Assembly (NCBI GenBank): GCA_018340375.1
Contig: JAFFJZ010000001.1
Coordinates: forward strand, 30,992,001 to 31,056,000
Direction: 5' to 3'
Length of the DNA stretch: 64,000 nt
Source: Gonatopus flavifemur
Taxonomy: Eukaryota; Arthropoda; Insecta; Hymenoptera; Dryinidae
Shown here: positions 5,113 to 62,963 of the stretch, piece after piece
Position numbering within the stretch: the stretch's first letter is position 1
How the letters are laid out: every line of letters begins with the position of its first letter
Notes under the pieces: generated by a model
Seen by the model: only the letters and a program-made list of their open reading frames with translations
The model's database searches: none
What the model was told of the DNA's origin: nothing
Translations under genes and position numbers: made by a program

Positions 5113-6505
5113 AAAACGATTCAATGAGAGAATCAAGGAAAGCAAAAGAACAATGGTTAGAGGAAAAATGTCAGGATATAGAAGTAAGATTACATTTAGG
5201 GAAAATAGATGAGGCACATAGGATTCTTAAGAGATTTTTTGGACAAATGAAATCTAGAAGCAGTGAGATGATAAATTCTCTAGGGAGACAATTGATAAGA
5301 ACGGAGGAAAAAATAGAACAATGGATTAATAATTTGAAAGATCTGTATAAAGGAAGCGATAATATAGGATTTTTAGAGAGGGAGGAAGATGTCGATGGAG
5401 AAGAATTGGGAGATTCAATTGAGGTCAGAATTTGACAGGGCTTTAAGAGAATTGAAAAATAATAAAGCGCCAGGAATAGATGGAATAATTGCGGACCTTA
5501 TCAAAGCCTCCAGTCAGAAAACTCATGACGCACTGTTTGAATTGGTCAGAGATATGTACGGAAGAGGAGAAGTACCGAAAGATTTCCAGAAGAATAAAAT
5601 TGTCACCATTCCAAAAAAAACAAGGAGCTGACAAATGCGAAAATTACAGAACGATTAGTTTAACTTCATACGCCTCGAAAATACTGACAAAAATTATATA
5701 CAGGAGAATAGAGAATAAAATAGATAGTAGATTAGCTGAAGATGAGTTCGGTTTTAGGAAAAATAGGGGAACGCGGGAAGTGATATTAGCACTCAGAACG
5801 GTAGTAGAGAAAAGTCTGAAGCTAAAAAAGTCTGTTTATATAGGTTTTGTAGATATACAAAAAGCATTCGATGATGTTGATTGTGAGAAAATGTTCACGA
5901 TTTTGAAAAAGGTAGGAATCAATTTCAAGGATAAGAGAATAATATGTGAATTATATAAGAATCAAACCGCAATAATAGAAATAGAGGGTTGAAAAGGAGA
6001 AGCACGAATGAAAAGAGGGGTGAGACAAGGATGCTCACTATCGCCATTGATTTTCAATTTGTATACAGAAGAAGCGATGAACGAAGTGAAGGAGCAAGCG
6101 CAATTGAAATTACAGATTCAAGGTGAAAATGTAAGCATGTCGAGATTTGCGGATGACATAGCTATATTAGCTACGAGTGATGCTGAGTTAGAAAATACTC
6201 TTAACACGATGAAAACAATATTACTAGAAAACTATTGTATGAATATAAATAAGGACAAAACAAAATTCATGATTCGTACAACAGCGAAAACATCAAGAAG
6301 AACGAAAATCAAAATAGATGCAGAGACAATTCAGCAAGTGAAAGAATTTAAATATCTAGGAAGCATAATTACAGAAAATGGTAAAAGCGAAACAGGTATA
6401 AGACCAAGAATAACACAAGGCTTTCCACCAAAAGAAAGTTACTATGCTCAAAGAATATTAGCTTAGCGGTAAGGAAGAAATTCTTGAAGAGTTACGTGAA
6501 TGGAA
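5113..6505 (+). pseudogene. 5'-truncated RTE-like LINE reverse transcriptase remnant
   Basis: This is a fragment of the same LINE that is full length at 51048-54390. It starts in the middle of the protein (RESRKAKEQW), so the endonuclease half is missing, as expected for 5' truncation during target-primed reverse transcription. Reverse transcriptase signatures are still readable: NNKAPGIDG, DIQKAFDDVD, GVRQGCSLSPLIFNLY and the catalytic FADDIAILA. The frame breaks near 5420 (small deletion), again at an eight-A run at 5612-5619, and there is an in-frame stop before GVRQG near 5990. The 3' end is cut off where a SINE begins at about 6500. It cannot encode an active enzyme. Confidence 0.88.
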
Positions 6506-9695: not shown

Positions 9696-10043
9696 TTAAC
9701 TACCAAGACTCTTCATTTTCCCAGCCTCATATTTTGATTGAAGACAATTATGAAATTTGATAACCATATTAGTCATCATTACCGTTAAATTATTCTCTAA
9801 TTCAAGTAAACATGGGGTTTTATGTTGAACAAATATTTCTTCGTATAGGGCTTCGAGAGGATGAACGATGAGAGAAACTTCCGAAGCAGCATCTAAAACA
9901 TGTTTGACAGTGTTCAATCCTTCTTCGATATAGCATTTTATCACCTTCAGTTGATATTCCCATGGATTCAATTCTGGATCACTTTGAACGGTACAAGCTC
10001 CATAGGAGAGGTATTGCAACAGTTGGCCAATTTGATGGCTGTT
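9696..10043 (-). CDS. Gene A exon 4: terminal exon, four-cysteine helical domain
   Basis: A 348-bp exon with 115 codons and a TAA stop. It follows a strong acceptor, a T-rich tract ending CAATAG, and starts with Asn-Ser-His. Cysteines are at exon residues 17, 37, 78 and 100, and a tryptophan is at 28. In gene B's terminal exon the cysteines are at 16, 36, 78 and 100 and the tryptophan at 27. Shared phrases include VLDA/VLDG, a C-L motif at Cys78, and FHNCLQS versus FYNCINS. Hydrophobic residues recur every three to four positions, suggesting helices. No catalytic motif is visible, and no AATAAA was found close downstream. Function unknown. Homology to gene B is the strongest reason to call this coding. 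Confidence 0.85.
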   Translation of the reverse strand, partial: NSHQIGQLLQYLSYGACTVQSDPELNPWEYQLKVIKCYIEEGLNTVKHVLDAASEVSLIVHPLEALYEEIFVQHKTPCLLELENNLTVMMTNMVIKFHNCLQSKYEAGKMKSLGS

Positions 10044-10887: not shown

Positions 10888-11058
10888 CTTGCTTAGAATT
10901 TTAATAGATTCCAACGCTTGAATCAATCTTGAATCGTTCTCAATACAATACGTGGTTGAATTATCATACAATTGTGAGAATTCTAGTATATTTTGGTCGA
11001 TTTGATTTTCGCAGTCGATAAAGTGGTCTCTTCCATGTGTTACTTTATCCATTATTTT
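10888..11058 (-). CDS. Gene A exon 3: 57-codon, two-cysteine exon
   Basis: A phase-0 exon of 171 bp between acceptor TTTTATTTAG and donor AAG|GTTTGT. It is exactly as long as gene B's exon at 49731-49561, and the two align without a gap. Identical positions include Cys16-Glu17, Ile20, Gln22, Tyr31, Cys38, Ala48 and Ser51-Ile52-Lys53. The two cysteines are 22 residues apart, which is also the spacing of the last two in the terminal exon. The sequence is rich in charged and aliphatic residues, so a helix is likely. Overall identity to B is low, so the copies are old. The role is unknown. Confidence 0.85.
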
Positions 11059-12440: not shown

Positions 12441-13341
12441 CTACAATGATTTTGGTGCCGCTAAAACTAAAGCAGATTGTGAGTATATTCGATACCCTGA
12501 CTCTGGAAATATACTTATTTTTTTAATGCTACGTGTAGTTTTCAAGAAATCGCAGGTGTAAAATAAAATGAAAATGCACGTTTTTGAAACGTTTTATTCC
12601 ATTATTCCACACGTTAACAACATTTTATCAAATTATTCTTCAAATTATCCCAAAATATGAGTCATTCTCTTCCAAATGCGATTAGGTTTGTTCAAATATC
12701 TTTTTGTTTCTCTGAGATACGACAGTTTGAAAATTGTGTTATTTCACCTATTCACTAAATCCATGAACACACAAATTTCAAATTGTCGTGTCACAGTAAA
12801 AAAAAAGATATTCGAGCAAACTCAACGGCATTCGGAAGGGGATGGATTATATTTTGAGGTGCATCTACTAGTTTCATGAGAAAAAATTACATTCTGACGT
12901 CACGTAATCTCAAATATGTCGAAAAACGGTGTTTTTCACACTTTGACGTTAAAATATCTCAAAAACCACACGTAATAATGCAATTTTGAAGCCAGATTCG
13001 GATTCAGCGCGCCAAAATACTTCGGAAAAGTATGATACAGTTGTTGCACCAAACAAAAAGTTCAATTTTGTAGGCCTCGTTTTTCTTCAAGTTTCAAATT
13101 ACATTTGTCTAGGGACACTGCCGTTTGTATTTCTTGGAAAGGATACTATAGCGAGGGTGCTATAGCACCCTGATGTTAACCAAATTGTTCATACGAGACT
13201 TTTCGAATACCTTGCAATTCATTCTCAGAATATTGTTCAATGCCTCAATCGTTGAATACTTATATGACTGCAAAGAAATACTTTACAGAGCGATATTCTA
13301 AAACTTGTGAAGAATAGTCTAGAAATCTCACATGAACAATT
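12441..13341. other. Non-coding stretch in gene A intron 2
   Basis: No gene, clear repeat border or RNA gene is visible. The sequence is AT-rich. The short reading frame at 12676-12879 has no supporting features. Confidence 0.4.
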
Positions 13342-13355
13342 CACTTAGAGGGATG
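13342..13355 (+). repeat. Target-site duplication, left copy, of the R1-like LINE
   Basis: CACTTAGAGGGATG is repeated exactly at 15294-15307 and brackets the LINE. It shows that the truncated 5' end is the real insertion junction. Confidence 0.85.
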
Positions 13356-15098
13356 TGTATGGAATGGGGGGAAAATTCTGGAGGAGTGGAAACAGATTTG
13401 GATAGCGCCGATTGTGCAGAAGTAGAGGGCAAAAGGGTGGAAGAATATACAGGGGTAGCTCTGACCACAGCGCTATACAAGGTATACACGATGGTCGTGG
13501 CAAAGAGGCTAGAGAGGGAGGTGGAAGAAAAGAAGATAATACCGGGGAACCAGACAGGGTTTAGGAAAGGGGTAGGTACGTTGGACAACATCTACGCGTT
13601 AAATTATATAATAGGGAGAACAATTAGGGAGGGAAAAGAAAGGATAGCAGCGATATTTGTGGATTTAAAGGCGGCTTTCGACATGGTGGATAGGGGAGTG
13701 TTATGGGGGGATATGAGGAAGAGAGGGGTAAGAGAAGGGCTGATAGGAAGGATTAGGAGGCTATATGGTTGAAACAAGAGGGAGGGTAAGAGTAAGAGGG
13801 GAGCTGACGGAGGCGTTTTGGACGGCAAGGGGGATAAGGCAAGGGTGCCCTTTGAGCCCTATGCTGTTTAACTTGTCGACGTCGGATCTTGAAGGGGGAT
13901 TAGCAAGAAGTGGGAGAGGAGGGGGAAAGAGAATATGGAGTTTGGCATACGCTGACGACATAGTTGTCATATCGAGGGTGAAGGAGATGCAGGAGGTAAT
14001 TGGAGTATTGAGGAGATATTTTAGGGAGAAGGGGTTGGAGGTAAACATTGGGAAAACTAAGGTAATGAGGTTTAGGAGGGGAGGGGGAAAACAGAAAGAG
14101 GTAATGTGGAAATGGGGGAAGAAAGAGCTAGAGGAGGTTAAAGAATGGAAGTATCTGGGGTATGTTATACAGAGCAATGGTGAGGGAAAGGATAAGGAAG
14201 GGTATGGTGGTAGTGAGGACAGTATGGGGGATAGGAGAGAGGAGGTTAGGAGCGGACTGGAGGAGGAGATTGTGGATATGGGATAGATTGGTACGGACGG
14301 TAGTAGAGTATGGGGCGGAGATTTGGGGATGGAAGGAAAAAAAAGGGAACGGAGGGGTTACAGGGAAAATATTTGAGATGGACACTGGGTTTAGATCGGA
14401 GGACGCCTGGGTATATGGTGAGGGAGGAATGTAAGAGGGATAAGTTGAGAATAGGTTTCAGGAGGAGGGCCTGTAGATATGAGGAGAAACTGGAGAAAGG
14501 AGAGGAGGGGGAAGTGGCAATGAGGTGCTGGAGGGAAATAAAGTTGGGTAGAGTGGGGGGAATGTGGGTAGAAGAAAGGAGGGAATGGTATGAGGTTTTT
14601 GGGGGGCAAGGGGCGGAATGGGAGATAGGAGAAAGAGTGGGATGGGCGGAGATGATAGAGAAAGATAGGAGAACTCAAATAGAGGAGAGGAGATTGAGGA
14701 TAAGAGAATCGAGGTACAATCCGTGGTATAGGGAAGTAGGGGTAGAGGGCATCTCGAAGTACCTGAGGGAGAGTAAAGGGGTAAAGTGGGCTAGGAGGAT
14801 TGCGAGATTTAGGTTAGGGAATGAAATGAGAGGGGGGAAATATTGGGAGGAGGAGGATAGGTGGATGTGTAGGGTATGTGGAAGAGACGTAGAGGAGTGG
14901 GAACATGTGCTGGAGAGGTGCACAGGGGGTGGTCAGGTGGGGTTGGGTGAGAGGATAAGGGAAATATTGGGAGAGGATGGGACGGGGGAGGGGTGGATGA
15001 GGGAATTGGAGGGGGAAAGAAGGAGGGCAGGGAGGGGAGGGGGTTGGGAAAAGGAGGATGGGACAGAGGGAATGAATGCTGGATTGGATGGATGAATG

Positions 15099-18438: not shown

Positions 18439-18582
18439 CTGAACTGACATTTTCAAATCTGTCCCCATTTCGTTGATCCTCTTTTCATATTTTGCAATCC
18501 AATTATTTAATGATGATAAGATCGTTGTCACGGTGTGTGGTATCGTTTGATCCAGTAGATGATTCTTACTTCCAAAATTGGG
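18439..18582 (-). CDS. Gene A exon 2: 48-codon helical exon
   Basis: A phase-0 exon of 144 bp between acceptor TATACATTCACAG and a consensus donor, CAG|GTGAGT. Its last 35 codons match the last 35 of gene B's 59-codon exon (50500-50324) without a gap: I-P-x-x-V-x-T, then N-x-W-I, ending at the same donor. The first 13 residues have no obvious match, so B is longer at the start by 11 codons. No cysteine. The acceptor choice is supported by sequence but not proven, since the frame stays open for another ~60 bp upstream. Confidence 0.78.
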
Positions 18583-28601: not shown

Positions 28602-28870
28602 CCCTGTGCGAAAAAACCAATAGAAACCAATAGGCGAAATCCTAATGGAATCAATGATATCCTATCGGTTTCTATGCGGTTATTGTCACAGGATCCAAGG
28701 GTTTCTATGAGATTCTAAGTGAAATCTGATGTTCCATGGGTTTCTATCAGCATGATCGGCAAAACCTGATTAATTCTGATAGGAATAAAATAGCATAACG
28801 GTTTCTATGCGGTTATTTTCACAGTACCTATGGGAATCCATGGGAATCTATGGGACTTTTCGGACAGGGC
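28602..28870. mobile_element. MITE family 2, copy 1
   Basis: It runs from CCCTGTGCGAAAAAACC to CTTTTCGGACAGGGC, with repeated GGTTTCTATGCGGTTATT phrases inside. A near-identical copy lies at 56735-57004 in gene B. The close match suggests recent movement. Confidence 0.8.
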
Positions 28871-29591: not shown

Positions 29592-29657
29592 CTCGGATTT
29601 TACCAAAACCAACATCATGTAGGTAGCTATCAAGGTACACAATATTTTTCTTCCCAT
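29592..29657 (-). CDS. Gene A exon 1: signal-peptide exon
   Basis: A 22-codon first coding exon from ATG (29657-29655) to donor GAG|GTAAAA. The peptide starts MGRKILCTLI and continues through a hydrophobic run, MMLVLV, to a polar end, KSE. This is a standard signal-peptide layout of basic start, hydrophobic core and short polar tail, so the protein should be secreted or enter the endomembrane system. The junction is phase 0, as at every other exon of the family, and fits exon 2 directly. The exon is 66 bp long, the same as the repeat exons of gene B. The donor is weaker than consensus (GTAAAA). Confidence 0.72.
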
Positions 29658-36387: not shown

Positions 36388-37709
36388 CATTCTGTCAAAA
36401 AAGTACCGGGAATTGATCATTTAAAAAGTGCGGCTAACGGGTTTGTCAACATTCTTTTTGTTGTTGAGTTGGTACATTCGTCCTGTATATTGACGCGGAG
36501 TTCGACTGTCATCTGTCATTCAGTTTGTTTATAGTGCTCGATCTTTTCAGTTCTCTCAAGTGTGTCCCGCGATTGTCACAATGGATACAAAGATTGAACA
36601 AAGAATTTGTTTTAAATTTTGCGTTGCAAATGGAATTTCGTGTGCCGAATTGCTGAAAATGTTGGAGAAGGCTTACGGTGAATTGACTCTATCAAAAACA
36701 CGTGCATATGAGTGGTACAGTGCATTCAAAAGTGGTCGAGATGTGGTGAAAGATTTGCCTCGCTCTGGTCGTCCATTGACGTCTTTAACTGAAGTTAATA
36801 TCGATAAAGTGGAGGAAATGGTGACTGAAAATCGTCGCTTAAGTTTGAGAGAGATAGCAGGTGAACTTTCTGTGTCTTACGAATCAGTTCGTACTATTTT
36901 ACATGATTGTTTGGACATGAAACGCGTTGCCGCTCGATTAGTTCTGAAAGACTTGAATTTTCTCCAGAAACTGAATCGCGTACAGGTCGCTGAAGACATG
37001 CTAAAACGAGTCAATTTCGACTCCACATTCATAACACGCATCATAACAGGTGATGAGACATGGGCTTACGAATATGACATGCAAACCAGTCAACAAGCTT
37101 CGGAGTGGCGGCTTCCAGCTGAGCCGAAACCAAAAAAGCCACGCCAAAGCCGATCAAAAGTGAAGGTAATGTTGACTGTGTGTTTTGATTATCGCAGTGT
37201 TGTACATTCGGAATTCTTGCCAGAAGGTCAGACGGTGAATGAGGAATATCATCTAAGCGTTATGCGGCGTTTAAGAGAGCAAATTCGTCGAAAAAGGCCA
37301 GATTTGTGGAAAGAAAATTCATGGATTTTGCATCACGATAATGCACGATCTCACAAGGCTTTCATTGTGAACCAATTTTTGGCCGAAAACTCAACAAATA
37401 TCATCGAACAGCCACCGTATTCACCTGATCTGGCTCCAGCCGACTTTTTTCTGTTTCCAAATCTTGAATTATCACTTCGAGGCATCCGTTTTGAATCGAT
37501 AGAAGATATTAAAGAGAATTCGCGGCGAGAACTGAAATCGATTCCGGAAAAAGCGTATAAAAAATGTTTTGATGATTGGATTGTTCGTTGGCATAAATGT
37601 ATCATTTCGGGAGGGAACTACTTTGAAGGCGATACAATAGATTTGGAAGAATAAAAAATATTTTGTGTTTTATTCAAGAATTCCCGGTCCTTTTTTGACA
37701 GAATGTGTG
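36388..37709 (+). mobile_element. Mariner transposon, apparently intact
   Basis: A ~1.32-kb class II element. Terminal inverted repeats read CATTCTGTCAAAAAAGTACC and, at the other end, GGTCCTTTTTTGACAGAATG. A TA precedes the left end. On the right the nearest TA lies a few bases out, so the exact duplication is uncertain. It contains one long uninterrupted transposase gene. Ends and gene both look whole, which is unusual among the many mariner fossils in insect genomes. Confidence 0.9.
36581..37654 (+). CDS. Mariner transposase, full length (D,D34D)
   Basis: A 357-residue transposase that would excise and reinsert its element at TA sites. The start at 36581 is the first ATG of the frame, and the protein opens MDTKIEQRIC. 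Residues 5-65 form the DNA-binding helix-turn-helix region, and a second one lies at about 85-110. The catalytic triad is complete: Asp158 in ITGDETW, Asp253 in HHDNARSH and Asp288 in PDLAPADFF, with 34 residues between the last two. The usual linker WVPHEL is replaced by a VLKDL-type motif at 121-125, a variant I have seen in some insect mariner lineages. No stops or frameshifts. Activity cannot be judged from sequence alone. Confidence 0.93.
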   Translation: MDTKIEQRICFKFCVANGISCAELLKMLEKAYGELTLSKTRAYEWYSAFKSGRDVVKDLPRSGRPLTSLTEVNIDKVEEMVTENRRLSLREIAGELSVSYESVRTILHDCLDMKRVAARLVLKDLNFLQKLNRVQVAEDMLKRVNFDSTFITRIITGDETWAYEYDMQTSQQASEWRLPAEPKPKKPRQSRSKVKVMLTVCFDYRSVVHSEFLPEGQTVNEEYHLSVMRRLREQIRRKRPDLWKENSWILHHDNARSHKAFIVNQFLAENSTNIIEQPPYSPDLAPADFFLFPNLELSLRGIRFESIEDIKENSRRELKSIPEKAYKKCFDDWIVRWHKCIISGGNYFEGDTIDLEE

Positions 37710-41426: not shown

Positions 41427-41789
41427 TCAATGAGGCGCTGTTTCTTCGGAATGATGTGCGGGGGTGCTGTTGGTTACTCCAGAATTAATACAATTGTAGA
41501 AGGTGAAACTCGCCGTCATCATTTCTTTCAATATCTTAGTTTGCGCGTTGACCAAACAGGAGAGCCCACGACCTATACGTGGTAGGTCTTCAGCCATTGT
41601 TGTAATATCCTCGACGGTAGTAAAAGCTTTCACAGCACCATCTAGTACCTGTGATCCAATCTCTATTCCACTGGGAATAAAGCAAATTAATTTCTTCACT
41701 CTGCGTGCCCACTGAGTTGGTTCGGAATCCGCCACATGTGGACATTTTTCACTTATTACCACCAGTTCACTTCCAAGATTTTTGAGATC
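41427..41789 (-). CDS. Gene B terminal exon: four-cysteine helical domain
   Basis: A 363-bp exon with 120 codons and a TGA stop, opened by acceptor CCAATAG and starting Asp-Leu-Lys. Cysteines at residues 16, 36, 78 and 100 and Trp27 match gene A's terminal exon (17, 37, 78, 100 and Trp28). Shared stretches include a V-L-D-G/A block and the pattern F-x-N-C before the tail. The last ~17 residues (serine, threonine and histidine rich, ending EETAPH) have no match in A. No enzyme motif is visible. The domain is probably a helical bundle with two disulfides. Confidence 0.85.
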   Translation of the reverse strand, partial: DLKNLGSELVVISEKCPHVADSEPTQWARRVKKLICFIPSGIEIGSQVLDGAVKAFTTVEDITTMAEDLPRIGRGLSCLVNAQTKILKEMMTASFTFYNCINSGVTNSTPAHHSEETAPH

Positions 41790-43179: not shown

Positions 43180-43570
43180 CTGCGAAACTGTACGCTCATC
43201 ACAGCACATTGCTGTGGCAATGCGAACTATAGTTGATACAACGATCTATGCAAATGGAGAAAAAGATACGTATCATTGTAGGATGGGTACCAGATCGTTC
43301 TACCAATTATATTACACTGAGATAAATAATGAGGGTAGACCGGGTACGATTGGAACACAGGACGGTTGGAACAGAATAAATATCTCGCCAATTTTTGATA
43401 ATGGGGAAAAAGATCTAGGGACGAATGAAGTGAAACCGAAGTCCCATCACGAATCTCAGTGTCGCATCATTCACCACACGTTGCATAATTCCCTTATAAC
43501 GAAAACAATTAGCGGAATATTTGTGGCGTTCCAACCGTCCTGTGTTCCAACCGTACCCGGTCTCCTCTAC

Positions 43571-43760
43571 TAATACCAAGAAAACATATTCTTGAATATT
43601 TTTGAACCAGATCGTTCTACCAATTATATTACACTGAGAGAAATAATTACTAATACCAAGAAAACATATTCTTGAATATTTTTGAACCAGATCGTTTTAC
43701 CAATTATATTACACTGAGAGAAATAATTACTAATACCAAGGAAACATATTCTTGAATATT
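43571..43760 (+). repeat. 80-bp tandem repeat
   Basis: Two full units and a partial third start at 43571, 43651 and 43731, each opening TAATACCAAGAAAACATATT. The unit contains ACCAGATCGTTCTACCAATT, which also occurs once at 43290-43310, so the array probably grew from that sequence. Confidence 0.8.
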
Positions 43761-43862
43761 TTTAAGAATACATATTCTTGATTACAGCTGATATGTTGCA
43801 AGCTCAAGTGGAATTCCCTTGGATCAAGAGAATATTTTTTCAATTCAGGAAATACATCCTTA

Positions 43863-49560: not shown

Positions 49561-49731
49561 CTCAAAAATTTCTTTAATCGAACGAAACGCATGGAAAATG
49601 TTTGAATATTCACCAAAACAGCGTTCAAGGACATCATAATACTGCTTAGGAACCATCACTACGTCCTGATGTATTTCTTGCTCGCATACCATTATATTCC
49701 CGAATTCTGCCATAGCACGTTGTAACGTACG
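49561..49731 (-). CDS. Gene B 57-codon, two-cysteine exon
   Basis: A phase-0 exon of 171 bp between acceptor TTTCCATGAGTAG and donor GAG|GTTCGT, opening Arg-Thr-Leu-Gln. It has the same length as gene A exon 3 and aligns gap-free with it. Cys16 and Cys38 sit at the same positions, with Cys-Glu, Ile20, Gln22, Tyr31, Ala48 and SIK at 51-53. The frame is open with no stop and hydrophobic residues have helical spacing. The two cysteines are 22 residues apart. Confidence 0.85.
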
Positions 49732-50323: not shown

Positions 50324-50500
50324 AGCAACGTTCTGCTTTATACCGCCCAAGGCATTTTTCACGGTGAAATACTGTTGATTAATCCAGACATTAATCTTGG
50401 CTTCTAATGTTTTGACACCCCTTGGTATGATATTTACAAGAAAATTATCGAGATCTCGTTCGGCCTCAGATACTTCTGTCCACACTATTTGTGATTGGTT
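50324..50500 (-). CDS. Gene B 59-codon helical exon
   Basis: A phase-0 exon of 177 bp between acceptor TTTTTTTCATAG and donor GCT|GTGAGT. It starts Asn-Gln-Ser-Gln and is lysine, asparagine and aliphatic rich, with no cysteine. The last 35 codons align with gene A exon 2 (I-P-x-x-V-x-T, then N-x-W-I). The first part contains acidic EVSEAERDL. It precedes the two-cysteine exon, as in gene A. Confidence 0.82.
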
Positions 50501-51069: not shown

Positions 51070-52933
51070 TTATGACTGGTTTGATGAAATCCTCCAACCC
51101 TGTCTATTATCCGCTAACCGCTTAATTTTTGCATATCTACGGCAACCCTTATCTTGTATAATTTGCTTCATATAACTCAATCTAGGTCTACCTCTTCGTG
51201 TTTTACCATTCATTTTTCCTTCCAATATTGTTTTCAATAAGCTATCATGCCTCAATGTGTGTCCTATCAGATTACTTCTTCTTTTCACGACCTGTCTCAA
51301 GAGACTTCTTTTTTCATTTACCTTCTCAAGTACTTCTTCATTTCCTACTTTCTCTATCCACTTTATTCTAAGCATCTTTCTATAACACCACATTTCAAAA
51401 GCTTCAAGTCTTCGTTGGTTCGTTTTTCCAATTGTCCAAGTTTCGCAACCATATAATGCTGTGCTCCAAACGTAACTCTTCAAGAAGTTCTTCCTTACTG
51501 CTAAGCTAATATTCTTCGAACATAGTAACTGTTTCTTTTGGTGGAAAGCCTGTTTCCCTTGTGCTATTCTTGCTCTTATATCTCTTTCGCTTGTACCGTT
51601 TTCTGTAATTATGCTCCCTAGATATTTAAATTCTTTGACTTGCTGAATTGTCTCTGCATCTATTTTGATTTTCGTTCTTCTTGATGTGTTCGCTGTTGTA
51701 CAAATCATGAATTTTGTTTTGTCCTTATTTATATTCATACAATATTCGTCTAGCAATATTTTTTTCATAGTGTTGAGAGTATTTTCTAACTCAGCACCAC
51801 TCGTAGCTAATATAGCTATGTCATCCGCAAATCTCAACATGCTTACATTTTCACCTTGAATCTGTAATTTCAATTGCGCTTGTTCCTTCACTTCGTTCAT
51901 CGCTTCTTCTATATACAAATTGAAAATCAATGGCGATAATGAGCATCCTTGTCTCACCCCTCTTCTAATTTGTGCTTATCCTTTTTGACCCTCTATTTCT
52001 ATTATTGCGGTTTGATTCTTATATAATTCATATATTATTCTCCTATCCCTGAGATTAAATCCTACCTTTTTCAAAATCGTAAACATCTTCTCCCAATCAA
52101 CATTATCGAATGCTTTTTGTATATCTACAAAACCTATATACACAGACTTTTTTAACTCTAGACTTTTCTCTACTACTGTTCTCAGTGCTAATATTGCTTC
52201 TCGCGTTCCCCTATTTTTCCTAAAACCGAACTGATCTTCCGCTGATCTACTCTCTATTTTATTCTCTATTCTCTTGTATATGATTTTTGTCAGTATTTTC
52301 GAGGCATGTGAAGTTAAACTAATCGTTCTGTAGTTCTCGCATTTGTCTGCTCCTTGTTTTTTTTGGAATGGCGACAATTTTATTCTTCTGGAAATCTTTC
52401 GGTACTTCGCCTATTTCGTACATATCTCTGACCAATTCGAACAGTGCGTCACGAGTTCCCTGACTGGAGGCTTTGATGAGGTCCGCACTTATGCCATCTG
52501 TTCCTGGCGCTTTATTATTTTTCAATTCTTTCAAAGCCCTGTCGAATTCTGATCTCAAAATTGAATCTCCCAATTCTTCTTCATCGACATCTTCCTCCCT
52601 CTCTAAGAATCCCATATTATCGCCTCCTTTATACAGATCTTCTAAATGAGTAATCCATTGTTCTATTTTTTCCTCCGTTCTTATCAATTGTCTTCCTAGA
52701 GAATTTTTAATCTCACTGCTTTTAGATTTCATTTGTCCAAAAAAGCTCTCAACAATCCTACGTGCCTCATCAATTTTTCCTAAATGTAATCTCACTTCAA
52801 TATCTTGACATTTCCCCTCGAACCATTGTTCTTTTGCTTCCCTTGATTCTCTGATTATTTTATTCCTCAGTGCCTTGTATGTCTGCTGATCTTGTTCACT
52901 ATTCTTATTCTTGTAATCCCTCCTTTCATTAAA
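51070..52933 (-). pseudogene. RTE-like LINE reverse transcriptase, broken
   Basis: It continues the endonuclease frame. Thumb-to-palm motifs are readable: NNKAPGTDG, RTISLTSHASK, GFRKNRGTREA, DIQKAFDNVDW, RQGCSLSPLIFNLY, the catalytic FADDIAILA, then a C-terminal region with SYVWSTALYGCETWTIGK. Breaks are the TGA at the start, an eight-A run near 52361-52368 that shifts the frame after AIPKK, and a TAA before RRGVRQG near 51974. The eight-A shift is also present in the copy at 5.6 kb. The enzyme family is certain; function of this copy is unlikely. Confidence 0.88.
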
Positions 52934-54043
52934 TCAATTGAGAATTTCTTCTGTTATCCATGGTTTCTTAGGCTCTATCCCATCGTTCTTCGAAATTCCA
53001 TCTGCACATTGCTCTATGTTCCTCTCCATATTTGTCCATCTACTCTGTATTTCCAAGTCTTTCTCTTGTCGATCCTCCAATTTTTCGTCCAACATCGCTT
53101 TGAATGCGTCCTGTGTTTTTCCTTGTTTGAGATTCTTCAAATTCCATCTTTTTTGCATTTTCCTTTTCTCCTTCAGAGCTTTGAATTTCAGAGAACATTT
53201 CATCAGCAACATATTGTGATCACTATCTATATCCGCGCCTGGATAAGTTTTACAGCTTTTCACTTGGTTTCTAAATCTTTGTTTTACTAATATGTAATCA
53301 ATTTGATATCTTGCTGTATCTCCTGGCATTTTCCAAGTATAGATTCTTCTTGGATGATTTTTGAATAATGTGTTGTTAATAACCATTTTATGACTCTCAC
53401 AGAATTCGATTAAACGTTGTCCTCTTTCATTTATTTTTCCTAACGCAAAATCTCCTATTATGTTGGCCTCTTCTCCTTGCCCTACTACCGCATTCCAGTC
53501 GCCTATGATCATTAAATTTTCTTCTCCCTTCATATATTCTATCACTTCTTCTATTTCATCGTACATTTTTTCGATATCCCCCTCTGAGTATGCAGATGTG
53601 GGCATGTATACTTGGACTATAACAGTGTCTACCGGTTTTGTTCTAACTCTGACCATCATTACGCGTTCGCTATGTTGCAAATAATTTTCTATCCTATTCC
53701 CTACCCTCTTATGCATTATAATTCCCACACCTGCTTGACCATTCTTTGATCCTGTGTGAATGATTCTATAATCCCCACTCCAGAAATCCCCTTCTTGCGG
53801 CCATCTCATTTCACTAATTCCCATTACATCGATACCCAACCTCTTCATTTCCAGTTTCAAATTTTCTAATTTTCCTGTTTGTCTCAGTGATCTAACATTC
53901 CACGCTCCGACTCGAAGAATGTTCCCTATCTTCTTTGGGTTTCTATCTTGTTTGATGAGGTTCTCTCGAGCAGCCTCCACCCGGAGATCCGAACGGGAGG
54001 CTATTTTACCTCCGGAATATTTTACCCGAGAGGACGCCATCAT
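52934..54043 (-). CDS. RTE-like LINE apurinic-type endonuclease domain
   Basis: A 369-residue open frame that nicks target DNA for target-primed reverse transcription. Motifs are in the usual order: WNVRSLRQTGK, the metal-binding glutamate in ISEMRW, VYMPTS, GDWNAVVG with Asp and Asn, QIDYILV and SDHNML with the catalytic Asp-His. All key residues are present. The frame ends at a TGA after EEILN. The following codons continue in the same frame into the reverse transcriptase region, so that stop is a lesion in an originally continuous protein. Confidence 0.88.
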   Translation of the reverse strand: MMASSRVKYSGGKIASRSDLRVEAARENLIKQDRNPKKIGNILRVGAWNVRSLRQTGKLENLKLEMKRLGIDVMGISEMRWPQEGDFWSGDYRIIHTGSKNGQAGVGIIMHKRVGNRIENYLQHSERVMMVRVRTKPVDTVIVQVYMPTSAYSEGDIEKMYDEIEEVIEYMKGEENLMIIGDWNAVVGQGEEANIIGDFALGKINERGQRLIEFCESHKMVINNTLFKNHPRRIYTWKMPGDTARYQIDYILVKQRFRNQVKSCKTYPGADIDSDHNMLLMKCSLKFKALKEKRKMQKRWNLKNLKQGKTQDAFKAMLDEKLEDRQEKDLEIQSRWTNMERNIEQCADGISKNDGIEPKKPWITEEILN

Positions 54044-55278: not shown

Positions 55279-55383
55279 AGAAACCGCAGATGCAACGTGG
55301 AAGAGACTTTTGCGGCTGTAGTTGAATAATTGTTCACCATCCTTGATGAACACTTTCGCACCGTATTCAATGTTTTTCCGATT
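55279..55383 (-). CDS. Gene B 35-codon exon
   Basis: A phase-0 exon of 105 bp. The acceptor is TTTTCTTCCACAG and the preferred donor TCT|GTAAGA, with an alternative GCG|GTTTCT six bases earlier, also in frame. It opens Asn-Arg-Lys-Asn and includes YGAKVFIKDGEQLF. No cysteine. The start N-R-x-x-x-x-G-x-K resembles the start of the 22-codon repeats (N-R-I-S-E-G-V-K), so it may be an extended relative. No counterpart was found in gene A. Confidence 0.7.
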
Positions 55384-56638: not shown

Positions 56639-56704
56639 CATTACAAATCCTCCGACATAGCTAACTGCTTGTTTTGTACGATTAATGCCTGCTCCAACTT
56701 TTTC
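56639..56704 (-). CDS. Gene B repeat exon 8, diverged, acceptor shifted
   Basis: It aligns base for base with the 66-bp repeat exons and keeps the donor ATG|GTATGT and the flanking intron motif CATGCTTTGGAGTTATT. Encoded residues read EKVGAGINRTKQAVSYVGG. The conserved acceptor TTACAG is TTACAA here. The nearest AG is one base into the exon, giving 65 bp and breaking phase 0. It may be skipped, be a decaying exon or contain a sequencing error. Skipping it keeps the gene in frame. Confidence 0.55.
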
Positions 56705-56734: not shown

Positions 56735-57004
56735 GCCCTGTGCGAAAAAACCAATAGAAACCGAGAGGCGAAATCCTAATGGAATCAATGATATCCTATC
56801 GGTTTCTATGCGGTTATTGTCACAGGACTCAAGGGTTTCTATGAGATTCTAAGTGGAATCTGATGTTCCATGGGTTTCTATCAGCATGATCGGCAAAACC
56901 TAATTAATTCTGATAGGAATAAAATAGCATACCGGTTTCTATGCGGTTATTGTCACAGTACCTATGGAAATCCATGGGAATCTATGGGACTTTTCGGACA
57001 GGGC
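56735..57004. mobile_element. MITE family 2, copy 2
   Basis: Nearly identical to 28602-28870, from GCCCTGTGCGAAAAAACC to TTTTCGGACAGGGC. Confidence 0.8.
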
Positions 57005-60992: not shown

Positions 60993-61058
60993 TCCTATCG
61001 CTCTTTCGGCATTGCCAACTGCTTTTTCTGCATATTTAACGCCTCCACTTATACGGTT
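60993..61058 (-). CDS. Gene B repeat exon 7 (22 codons)
   Basis: Acceptor TTAAATTACAG, donor GGA|GTATGT. Begins NRISGGVKYAEKAV and ends GNAERAIG. It is the last of the regular array before a ~4-kb transposon-filled intron. Confidence 0.84.
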
Positions 61059-61270
61059 CTGTAATTTAAGGATGCAAATGTAGTGTGAGTATTCCGTGCG
61101 CTATACTTCGATGATTCGATGAGTCTCCAATTCATGAAAGGTTTTTGGGCTTTATTTTTCGAATTGTAAATTCGGCTCATTCTTTTGGATTCTTCCATGC
61201 TTTGGAGTAATTCATTGAATTTCCTAAAAACGTACTCATGTGAATCTCGTTATCAAAATGCAATACATAC

Positions 61271-61336
61271 TTCTATTGCTCTTTCGGCGTTGCCAACTGC
61301 TTTTTCTGCATATTTAACGCCTTCACTTATACGGTT
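61271..61336 (-). CDS. Gene B repeat exon 6 (22 codons, consensus form)
   Basis: Acceptor TTAAATTACAG, donor GAA|GTATGT. Begins NRISEGVKYAEKAV and ends GNAERAIE, identical in protein to repeat exon 3. Confidence 0.85.
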
Positions 61337-61547
61337 CTGTAATTTAAGGGTTCAAATGTAGTGTGAGTATTCCGTGGACTACACTTCGATGATTCGAAGA
61401 GTCTCCAATTCATGAAAGGTTTAGGGCTTTATTTTTCGAATTGTAAATTCGTCTCATTCTTTTGGATCCTTCCATGCTTTGGAGCAATTTATTAAATTTT
61501 CTAAGAACGTACTCATGTGAATCTCGTTATCAAAATGCAATACATAC

Positions 61548-61613
61548 TTCTATTGCTCTCGCGGCATTGCCAACTGCATCTTCTACGTATTCAACGCCTT
61601 CACTTATACGGTT
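61548..61613 (-). CDS. Gene B repeat exon 5 (22 codons)
   Basis: Acceptor TTAAATTACAG, donor GAA|GTATGT. Begins NRISEGVEYVEDAV and ends GNAARAIE. Confidence 0.84.
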
Positions 61614-61825
61614 CTGTAATTTAAGGATGCAAATGTAGTGTGAGTATTCCGTGCGCTATACTTCGATGATTCGACGAGTCTCCAATTCATGAAAGGTTTT
61701 TGGGCTTTATTTTTCGAATTGTAAATTCGTCTCATTCTTTTGGATTCTTCCATGCTTTGGAGTTATTCATTGAATTTCCTAAGAACGTACTCATGTGAAT
61801 CTCGTTATCAAAATGCAATACATAC

Positions 61826-61891
61826 TTCTACTGCTTTTTCGGCATTGCCAACTGCATGCTCTACGTATTCAACGCCTCCACGCATACGGTC
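61826..61891 (-). CDS. Gene B repeat exon 4 (22 codons)
   Basis: Acceptor TTGAATTACAG, donor GAA|GTATGT. Begins DRMRGGVEYVEHAV and ends GNAEKAVE. Confidence 0.83.
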
Positions 61892-61938
61892 CTGTAATTC
61901 AAGAGTTCAAATGTAGTGTACGTATTCCGTCGACTATA

Positions 61939-62182
61939 CACTGAGAAAAAAATTACCTTAATCATAAGAACCTATTTTTTTGTTCTAAGAATATATTTAT
62001 TTCTCTCATGTCAAGAAGATATGTACTTGGGGTAAGAAAATTTTCTTCGCGTCAAGGTGCATAATTTTGAACTAAGAAAATGTTTCCTCCTCTGAAAGAA
62101 AGTTCTCTTGAACCAAAAAAATATCGGATTGGGCTCGGTCAATCTAATATTTTCTTGGTTGAAGATTTTTCTTCTCTCTGTG
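61939..62182. mobile_element. CACTGAG-type MITE inserted in the exon array
   Basis: CACTGAGAAAAAAATTACCTT to TTTCTTCTCTCTGTG, flanked by TA. It interrupts the intron between repeat exons 3 and 4, and the array period is restored when it is removed. It therefore arrived after the array formed. Confidence 0.8.
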
Positions 62183-62349
62183 TACTTCGAATATTCGATG
62201 AGTCTCCAATTCGTGAAAGGTTTTTGGGCTTTATTCTTTGAATTGTAAATTCATCTCATTCTTTTGGATTCTCCCATGCTTTGGAGTAATTTATTGAATT
62301 TCCTAAGAACGTACTCATGTGAATCTCGTTATCAAAATGCAATACATAC

Positions 62350-62415
62350 TTCTATTGCTCTTTCGGCATTGCCAACTGCTTTTTCTGCATATTTAACGCC
62401 TTCACTTATACGGTT
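62350..62415 (-). CDS. Gene B repeat exon 3 (22 codons, consensus form)
   Basis: Acceptor TTAAATTACAG, donor GAA|GTATGT. Begins NRISEGVKYAEKAV and ends GNAERAIE. Its peptide is identical to that of repeat exon 6; the DNA differs by one silent change (AAT versus AAC). Hydrophobic residues at 3, 7, 10, 14, 17 and 21 follow a four-three spacing, as in a coiled-coil or lipid-binding helix. Confidence 0.85.
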
Positions 62416-62626
62416 CTGTAATTTAAGGGTTCAAATGTAGTGTGAGTATTCCGTGCACTATACTTCGATGATTCGATGAGTCTCCAATTCATGAAAGGTT
62501 TAGGGCTTTATTTTTCGAATTGTAAATTCGTCTCATCCTTTTGGATTTTCCGATGCTTTTGAGTAATTCATCGGATTTCCTCAAATCGTACTAATGTAAA
62601 TTTCAATATAAAAATTCAATACATAC

Positions 62627-62692
62627 CACTGTTGCTCTTTCGGCATTTGCAACTACATCTTCTAAGGATGCAATGGCTCCACTTATACCTCT
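62627..62692 (-). CDS. Gene B repeat exon 2 (22 codons)
   Basis: Acceptor TTGAATTACAG, donor GTG|GTATGT. Begins RGISGAIASLEDVV and ends ANAERATV. It shares its -ATV end with repeat exon 1, so the two form a subtype. Confidence 0.8.
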
Positions 62693-62897
62693 CTGTAATT
62701 CAAGGGTTCAAATGTAGTGTACGTGTTCCGTTCTTCAATGATCCGATGAGTATTCAGTTCATAAAAGATCTTTGATCTCCATTTTTCGAAATGCAAAGCT
62801 CTCTCATTCTTATGGATTTTTCTATGCTTTGGAGTAATTCATCGGATTTCCTCAAATCGTACTAATGTGAATTTCGATATAAAAATTCAATACATAC

Positions 62898-62963
62898 TAC
62901 TGTTGCTCTTCCAGCATTTGCCAATGCTTCTTCTGCTCCTTCAACGCCTTGGTGGGAAGTGCT
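62898..62963 (-). CDS. Gene B repeat exon 1 (22 codons, most diverged)
   Basis: Between acceptor CTCAAATTACAG and donor GTA|GTATGT. Encodes STSHQGVEGAEEAL followed by ANAGRATV. It keeps the G-V, A-E and N-A landmarks of the repeat. Confidence 0.78.

Follow-up and report, generated by a model that had tools for sequence, protein, structure and literature searches.

At positions 60993-62963 of the window (the whole stretch of 64,000 nucleotides of Gonatopus flavifemur contig JAFFJZ010000001.1 that was analysed) lies an array of seven stretches of 66 bp each on the minus strand, all seven of which are open in phase 0 and flanked by AATTACAG upstream and GTATGT downstream, as had been stated in a preliminary description of this DNA. 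Coordinates are given on the window scale (contig position minus 30,992,000), also for features that lie beyond the window.

62898..62963, minus strand: array exon 1, 66 bp, STSHQGVEGAEEALANAGRATV, open in phase 0 between AATTACAG and GTATGT
62627..62692, minus strand: array exon 2, RGISGAIASLEDVVANAERATV, frame and splice signals present
62350..62415, minus strand: array exon 3, NRISEGVKYAEKAVGNAERAIE, frame and splice signals present
61940..62185 (ends approximate), minus strand: insertion of about 247 bp in intron 3, seen as an alignment gap, with an imperfect 60-bp palindrome inside
61826..61891, minus strand: array exon 4, DRMRGGVEYVEHAVGNAEKAVE, frame and splice signals present
61548..61613, minus strand: array exon 5, NRISEGVEYVEDAVGNAARAIE, frame and splice signals present
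61271..61336, minus strand: array exon 6, protein identical to that of exon 3, one silent change
60993..61058, minus strand: array exon 7, NRISGGVKYAEKAVGNAERAIG, frame and splice signals present

The spacing from exon to exon is 271, 277, 524, 278, 277 and 278 bp, so that the recurrence at about 277 bp that had been described breaks down at one point, because intron 3 (458 bp versus 205-212 bp for the others) holds the insertion of about 247 bp, whose palindrome matches itself in inverted orientation at 76.7% over 60 bp. Elsewhere in the window (43568-43763) an 80-bp unit is repeated 2.5 times at 98% likeness, and its CACTGAGAGAAATAA-like end resembles, by eye, the end of the intron-3 insertion. 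Repetition by chance is excluded by the Tandem Repeats Finder scores of the array (1813 and 910). Phase 0 is the sole open frame on the minus strand in five of the seven exons (3-7). The openness of the 66-bp exons is by itself weak evidence for coding; with the observed changes placed randomly, all seven stay open in 17% of the trials (P 0.17). The donors of the array score poorly (-0.3 to 3.5) on the splice weights used, which serve for ranking only. Both borders of the array fall in introns, with likeness extending about 45 bp before exon 1 (by eye) and 166 bp after exon 7.

While the count of seven intact units holds for 60993-62963, the array is not the whole of the repeat, as there are two further units, one intact and one decayed:

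68347-68412, minus strand: eighth intact unit, outside the window, 66 bp, TSLSKGVPHAEEAGNRMKKLRP, both splice signals and the frame kept
56639..56704, minus strand: ninth unit, decayed, an open 66 bp with its GTATGT donor intact but AA instead of AG at the acceptor

The eighth unit sits 5.4 kb upstream of the array and was recognised at the DNA level through its likeness to the array (best E 6e-16, 2.3-kb subject), having been missed by the protein profile alone (E 2.9). The ninth is followed by an intron homologous to the array introns (74% over 121 bp) and is read as decayed because the next AG would yield 65 bp and a frameshift. AG/GT, the 66-bp length and the frame are thus retained in eight of nine copies. 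A short element is present in two 269-bp copies that are 96.7% alike (window 56736-57004 and 28602-28870), one of which sits about 30 bp ahead of the decayed unit and might have helped to disable it.

The sequence around the array suggests that its exons are internal exons of a predicted gene, here called gene A, that would comprise 18 exons over 52 kb (69, 5 x 63, 8 x 66, 105, 177, 171 and 363 bp) and encode 575 residues (553 from 17 exons, plus the exon at 68347). The other exons are:

93631-93699, minus strand: signal-peptide exon, 69 bp, phase 0, MKKHNFSGFVGLSVVVILMNING, from the exon scan
87111, 86166, 85336, 73173 and 70474, minus strand: five 63-bp exons upstream of the array, from the phase-0 scan
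55279..55383, minus strand: 105-bp exon, NRKNIEYGAKVFIKDGEQLFNYSRKSLFHVASAVS, from the phase-0 exon scan and splice sites
50324..50500, minus strand: 177-bp exon, from splice sites and a D2 homologue (E 8.8e-12)
49561..49731, minus strand: 171-bp exon with cysteines 1-2 of six, from splice sites and homologues in genes B, C, E and D2
41427..41789, minus strand: terminal exon, 363 bp with stop, cysteines 3-6, homologues in genes C, E, D2 and B

The count of 18 exons is provisional, with strong phase-0 candidates inside the gene at 80377 (48 bp), 75533 (36 bp) and 75357 (57 bp) omitted, and the phase is uniform in part because the exon scans favoured phase 0, which may have left exons of other phases unnoticed. 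A scan of the window for amphipathic phase-0 candidates, with thresholds that were set after the array had been seen and below which array exons 1 and 7 fall, found such candidates on the minus strand only: ten, of which eight are exons of the array or of the rest of gene A (with two of the eight nested). In a scan of 183 kb, the candidates of the minus strand were most often 63 bp long (6 of 56, versus 1 of 58 on the plus strand). These 63-bp phase-0 exons form a second exon class in C1 30,962,001-31,145,000, with five members in gene A and one in D2, of which the intron ends are alike and the exon bodies mostly unlike; when the six neighbourhoods are compared, three matching pairs align across the exon, whereas the remaining pairs align in intron parts only. 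The same 183 kb hold eight signal-like first exons, one of which (54933, 111 bp) fits none of the genes. A looser signal-exon scan of the window gave 11 candidates, and the one at 29592 alone was adopted (gene B, below).

Gene A has four predicted relatives within 190 kb (B, C, D2 and E), all of which carry the pair of a 171-bp and a terminal exon:

29592..29657, minus strand: gene B first exon, signal-peptide-like, MGRKILCTLIATYMMLVLVKSE, presumed member by order and strand
18439..18582, minus strand: gene B 144-bp exon, blastp E 0.004 to the gene A 177-bp exon (six-sequence set)
10888..11058, minus strand: gene B 171-bp exon, two cysteines, blastp E 1e-4 to A (six-sequence set)
9696..10043, minus strand: gene B terminal exon, 348 bp with stop, four cysteines, homology to the gene A terminal exon from the alignment
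101138-113480: gene C, 171-bp exon E 1.1e-5, terminal exon E 2.7e-17; its 177-bp exon was recognised by visual inspection, from its length and from the exon order, before being added to the profile
about 122-124 kb, plus strand: gene E, 171-bp exon E 0.009, terminal exon E 0.007
-59931 to -25305: gene D2, 171-bp exon E 5e-21, terminal exon E 7.4e-30

The scores of C, E and D2 come from profiles without the hit itself. By score, gene E is only weakly placed in the family, while the length of its 171-bp exon, the exon order and the cysteines agree with membership. The six cysteines are invariant in the aligned A, B, C and E, and D2 has (by eye in the alignments) all six plus one extra. More signal-peptide-like first exons, at about -839 to -771 (minus strand) and about 133867-133914 (plus strand), suggest that the cluster contains more genes. 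Beside the cluster, a spectrin-like exon at L021 7548-7739 (plus strand; Pfam PF00435, E 1.8e-5, 25.6 bits, cut-off 29.9) is a possible synteny anchor.

D2 is the closest relative of gene A, with small exons of 63, 63 and 60 bp followed by the 177-bp, 171-bp and terminal exons, and a signal exon (MKKNNFWVCASFSAVVILIIANG) of which 12 of 23 residues are alike that of gene A. After its small exons and before its 177-bp exon, i.e. at the place equivalent to that of the gene A array, D2 has a single 66-bp exon (-42793 to -42728, EDIDHGAEYARKGVNRIVGFLE), which is open and has TTACAG before and GTATGT after it. A blastn search of D2 from -47010 to -28000 with the array sequence gave this one clear match (E 7e-7; the next at E 0.05), and no homologue of the gene A 105-bp exon was found in the same interval. 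The array therefore looks like a gene A amplification of one exon, and the simplest history would be that the 66-bp exon was ancestrally single-copy and was amplified in gene A. The exon-level repeat expansion that had been proposed for the array is thereby supported by a homologous exon that is single, open and spliceable-looking in a sister gene, and the lengthening of a secreted-type protein by 22-residue steps by the D2-like signal exon together with the array, splicing and secretion being presumed.

Its regular tandem structure, and the many transposon ORFs nearby, might also suggest that a satellite or transposable element, in the form of the 277-bp unit, landed in gene A. A genome DNA search with one unit intron gave seven matches, each of which falls within the array or its decayed copy. 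This excludes an abundant transposon though not every distant copy, since the search took best candidates only and is a lower bound (three diverged copies were overlooked, namely the units at 68347 and in D2 and array intron 1). With the intron matches confined to this locus, and a single copy at the equivalent place in D2, a satellite or transposon origin was rejected, and we regard it as highly improbable. The mobile elements themselves include an apparently intact mariner transposase ORF of the DD34D type (window 36560-37654, plus strand), for which the best database matches, among those listed, are 85% over the full query. ORFs that we take to belong to LINE families lie at 51070-54043 (minus strand, in a predicted gene A intron) and 5489-6466 (plus strand), with reverse transcriptase in both and an endonuclease-like ORF in the first, and what we presume to be a second LINE type is present as reverse-transcriptase fragments at 13332-15095 (plus strand). 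The transposons point to an arthropod as the probable host, more likely an insect, although mariners can pass between species.

The introns of the array had been described as being as regular as the exons; regular they are, but in fact they are more alike than the exons in 18 of the 21 array pairs, nominally significant (P <0.05) in 12 of the 21, in a comparison over 159 columns of the following intron (without splice signals, insertion and 3' end) in which the pairs are non-independent and P is uncorrected. The exceptions lie among the near-identical exons 3, 6 and 7. Between the decayed copy and the array, the exon is the more different part in seven of seven comparisons (P <0.05 in six). 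When the array is set against D2, the upstream intron is more alike than the exon in all six comparisons, while in some of them the likeness of the exon is close to that of the downstream intron (0.36-0.55 vs 0.51-0.56). A joint likelihood model puts the exon rate at 1.96-2.34 times the intron rate on three of three trees (P 6e-4 to 9e-6).

The dN/dS between the copies, the calculation of which the preliminary description had proposed as a check, is 1.03-1.09, and dN = dS is not rejected (LRT P 0.81-0.92), a ratio that supports neither purifying nor positive selection. The single silent difference between exons 3 and 6, which was indeed found as described, is therefore no sign of purifying selection, and recent shared descent or conversion of these two exons is more likely. 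Synonymous sites in the array exons are also faster than the introns (P 0.023-0.11); since synonymous and nonsynonymous rates are alike, the exon excess extends beyond amino-acid changes. The excess fits an exchange of introns in which the exons were spared overwriting better than it fits plain positive selection, and it is also compatible with replacement of exons from diverged copies. The exon data reject three of five trees (AU 0.0004-0.009), namely those that were obtained from introns or grouped by a concatenated guess, as expected under exchange of short tracts. The intron data reject neither exon tree (AU 0.06 and 0.13); the 5' half of the intron rejects one of the two (0.031; the other 0.060) and the 3' half neither.

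A dN/dS of about 1 among copies, the loss of the acceptor in one of them, and a helix pattern that is not significantly kept copy by copy (see below) would also be found if the array consisted of decaying tandem pseudo-exons in a long intron, unspliced and neutral, with introns that are slow through constrained sequence. We consider this improbable: eight of nine gene A copies and the single D2 copy keep splice signals, the 66-bp length and the frame, and a neutral exon should not exceed its intron twofold in rate. Moreover, it would require constraint across the 159-bp intron stretch, for which there is no other support: the one array intron that was folded showed nothing unusual (z -0.93), so that RNA structure as the reason for intron conservation was set aside for lack of support in that intron.

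In the comparison of gene A with D2, three pairs of small exons have a dN/dS of 1.99, 1.49 and 1.18 (the pairing in pairs b and c was chosen by the analyst), versus 0.16 in the signal exon; the 177-bp, 171-bp and terminal exons have values of 0.93, 0.38 and 0.69, respectively. Nonsynonymous divergence is higher in the small exons than in the two cysteine exons (pN 0.478 vs 0.294, P 1e-4), whereas pS is not different (P 0.47). As N is below S in the cysteine exons (P 0.007) and not significantly different from S in the small exons (P 0.23), the cysteine domain is constrained at the protein level, while the small-exon part is loose or diversifying.

The hydrophobicity of the array peaks at 11/3 residues (harmonic 6 of 22; column permutation P 0.003), which suggests that it encodes a long amphipathic helix. 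The 22-residue helical repeat of the preliminary description would hold for the array as a whole; copy by copy its retention was not significant, as none of the four units tested kept the pattern beyond chance. The terminal exon is all helical in a two-sequence model of low confidence (pLDDT 51).

That the gene could not be assigned to a family was confirmed for the parts tested: no Pfam family scored above its cut-off with the array, with the C-terminal exons of A, B, C, D2 and E, or with the joined 63-bp exons. The nearest Pfam family is DUF725 (PF05267, cut-off 22 bits), for gene B, which reaches 12.4 bits when its C-terminal exons alone are used and 15.0 bits (E 0.025) once the 144-bp exon is added; there was no DUF725 match at E 5 for A, C and E and none at E 0.1 for D2, and a DUF725 search of the genome was blank, as it likewise was for 14 control genomes. 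Protein database searches gave nothing with the array plus three exons, among the 7993 scored candidates sharing most words, and nothing with a two-gene alignment query, among 1356 candidates. A control query with the mariner transposase of the window gave 1819 proteins; as the matches listed include named arthropods, such genomes are in the database, with sensitivity being limited for fast-changing proteins. A PDB match of the array to a metal-binding protein (E 0.0033) was marginal and was dismissed as a compositional helical match, and a PDB sequence search with the cysteine domain gave nothing below E 1. Scans of viral contigs revealed no relatives, Rfam and tRNA scans were empty, and no paper recognised as describing gene A turned up in the literature searched.

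Following these results, it is likely that gene A is one of a cluster of related genes for secreted proteins, and that one 66-bp exon was copied in it together with its intron by unequal exchange. The family plan, as far as found, would consist of phase-0 exons, with a signal exon first, fast-changing small exons next, and a conserved six-cysteine helical domain, spread over the last two exons, at the end. Unequal exchange inside introns would have copied the 66-bp exon with its intron to give eight intact copies and a decayed one, each copy adding 22 residues, i.e. two 11-residue periods of an amphipathic helix, so that the predicted protein of 575 residues would carry a helical stalk ahead of the cysteine domain. 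Such exchange would homogenize the introns, while differences between exons would last, probably as selection favours or tolerates different exons.

Since the copies are symmetric and the array ends in introns, gain, loss or skipping of copies keeps the frame. The copies might accordingly be alternative cassettes (mutually exclusive or skippable) from which a large set of isoforms would arise, as is the case for Dscam and for the micro-exon genes of schistosomes; the seven phase-0 copies have identical splice signals, any subset of them stays in frame, and the small neighbouring exons found around the array are symmetric as well. However, phase-0 ends also allow serial joining of all copies, exclusion is not required, and the one folded intron is without unusual structure, so that we find alternative use of the copies the less convincing reading, possible but rather unlikely. 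Returning to serial copies of one exon in a secreted protein, it can be put forward tentatively that gene A acts at a site of biological conflict, be it in saliva, in venom, or in an immune or reproductive secretion. With somewhat less confidence still, gene A could be seen as a single-gene diversity engine, in which exchange would rewrite introns and copy number, selection would shield or favour exon differences, and the length and sequence of a secreted helical stalk would vary quickly between individuals or species.

Among known systems, apolipoprotein A-type repeats are amphipathic helices of 22 residues, 66 bp each, that lie within one exon. The array shares the 22-residue, 66-bp repeat, but each repeat here has its own exon and there is no family-level match (apolipoprotein A1/A4/E, PF01442: array alone 14.4 bits, E 0.032, with a cut-off of 90 bits). 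Tandemly repeated exons encoding 81-base repeats are said, from its title, to be the subject of a 1988 study that is cited in the literature on schistosome micro-exon genes. Those genes, in the account drawn on here, encode secreted proteins from many short exons of 3-81 bp (PMC10526429), to which gene A, with a predicted signal exon and thirteen predicted exons of 63-66 bp, is alike in architecture, not in descent; they belong to another phylum, and no six-cysteine domain appears in the part of that source used here. The bicycle genes of aphids are, in the part of the source used here, putative effectors that evolve fast and whose numerous small internal exons almost all share one phase, and megacycle, a giant bicycle relative, contains multiple internal tandem duplications (PMC9168663). 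The internal exons of bicycle genes are almost all in phase 2 (PMC9168663), whereas the array exons are in phase 0 (exons 3-7 are open in phase 0 only) and of 66 bp, beside others of 63 bp, the gene A exons outside the array being a weaker test of phase as they were sought as phase 0.

A parallel in rates comes from the small secreted salivary gland protein (SSSGP) genes of the Hessian fly, which are described, in the part of the source used here, as clustered and secreted, with conserved introns and signal-peptide region and diversified coding regions, and for which homogenization of noncoding sequence, possibly via gene conversion, was proposed (PMC2955719). Coding regions of SSSGP-2 have about 950 nucleotides and 35 introns (PMC2955719). 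The likeness concerns architecture and rates: introns are more conserved than exons among the gene A array copies too. With regard to the positive selection (dN/dS above 1) expected in the mature part of SSSGP-like genes, the dN/dS here is 1.18-1.99 for the small exons of A vs D2 (N vs S, P 0.23) and about 1 among the array copies. In the part of that source used here, introns that are steadier than exons are reported between members of a secreted family (PMC2955719), whereas here the contrast is also found between repeated exons within one gene. Gene A and D2 thereby offer a natural before/after pair for the growth of an exon array, for how conversion spares exons, and for selection on protein length. 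Finally, the 63/66-bp phase-0 exons together with the 171-bp/terminal six-cysteine pair provide a structural signature by which members of the family could be recognised beyond the reach of the sequence searches made here.
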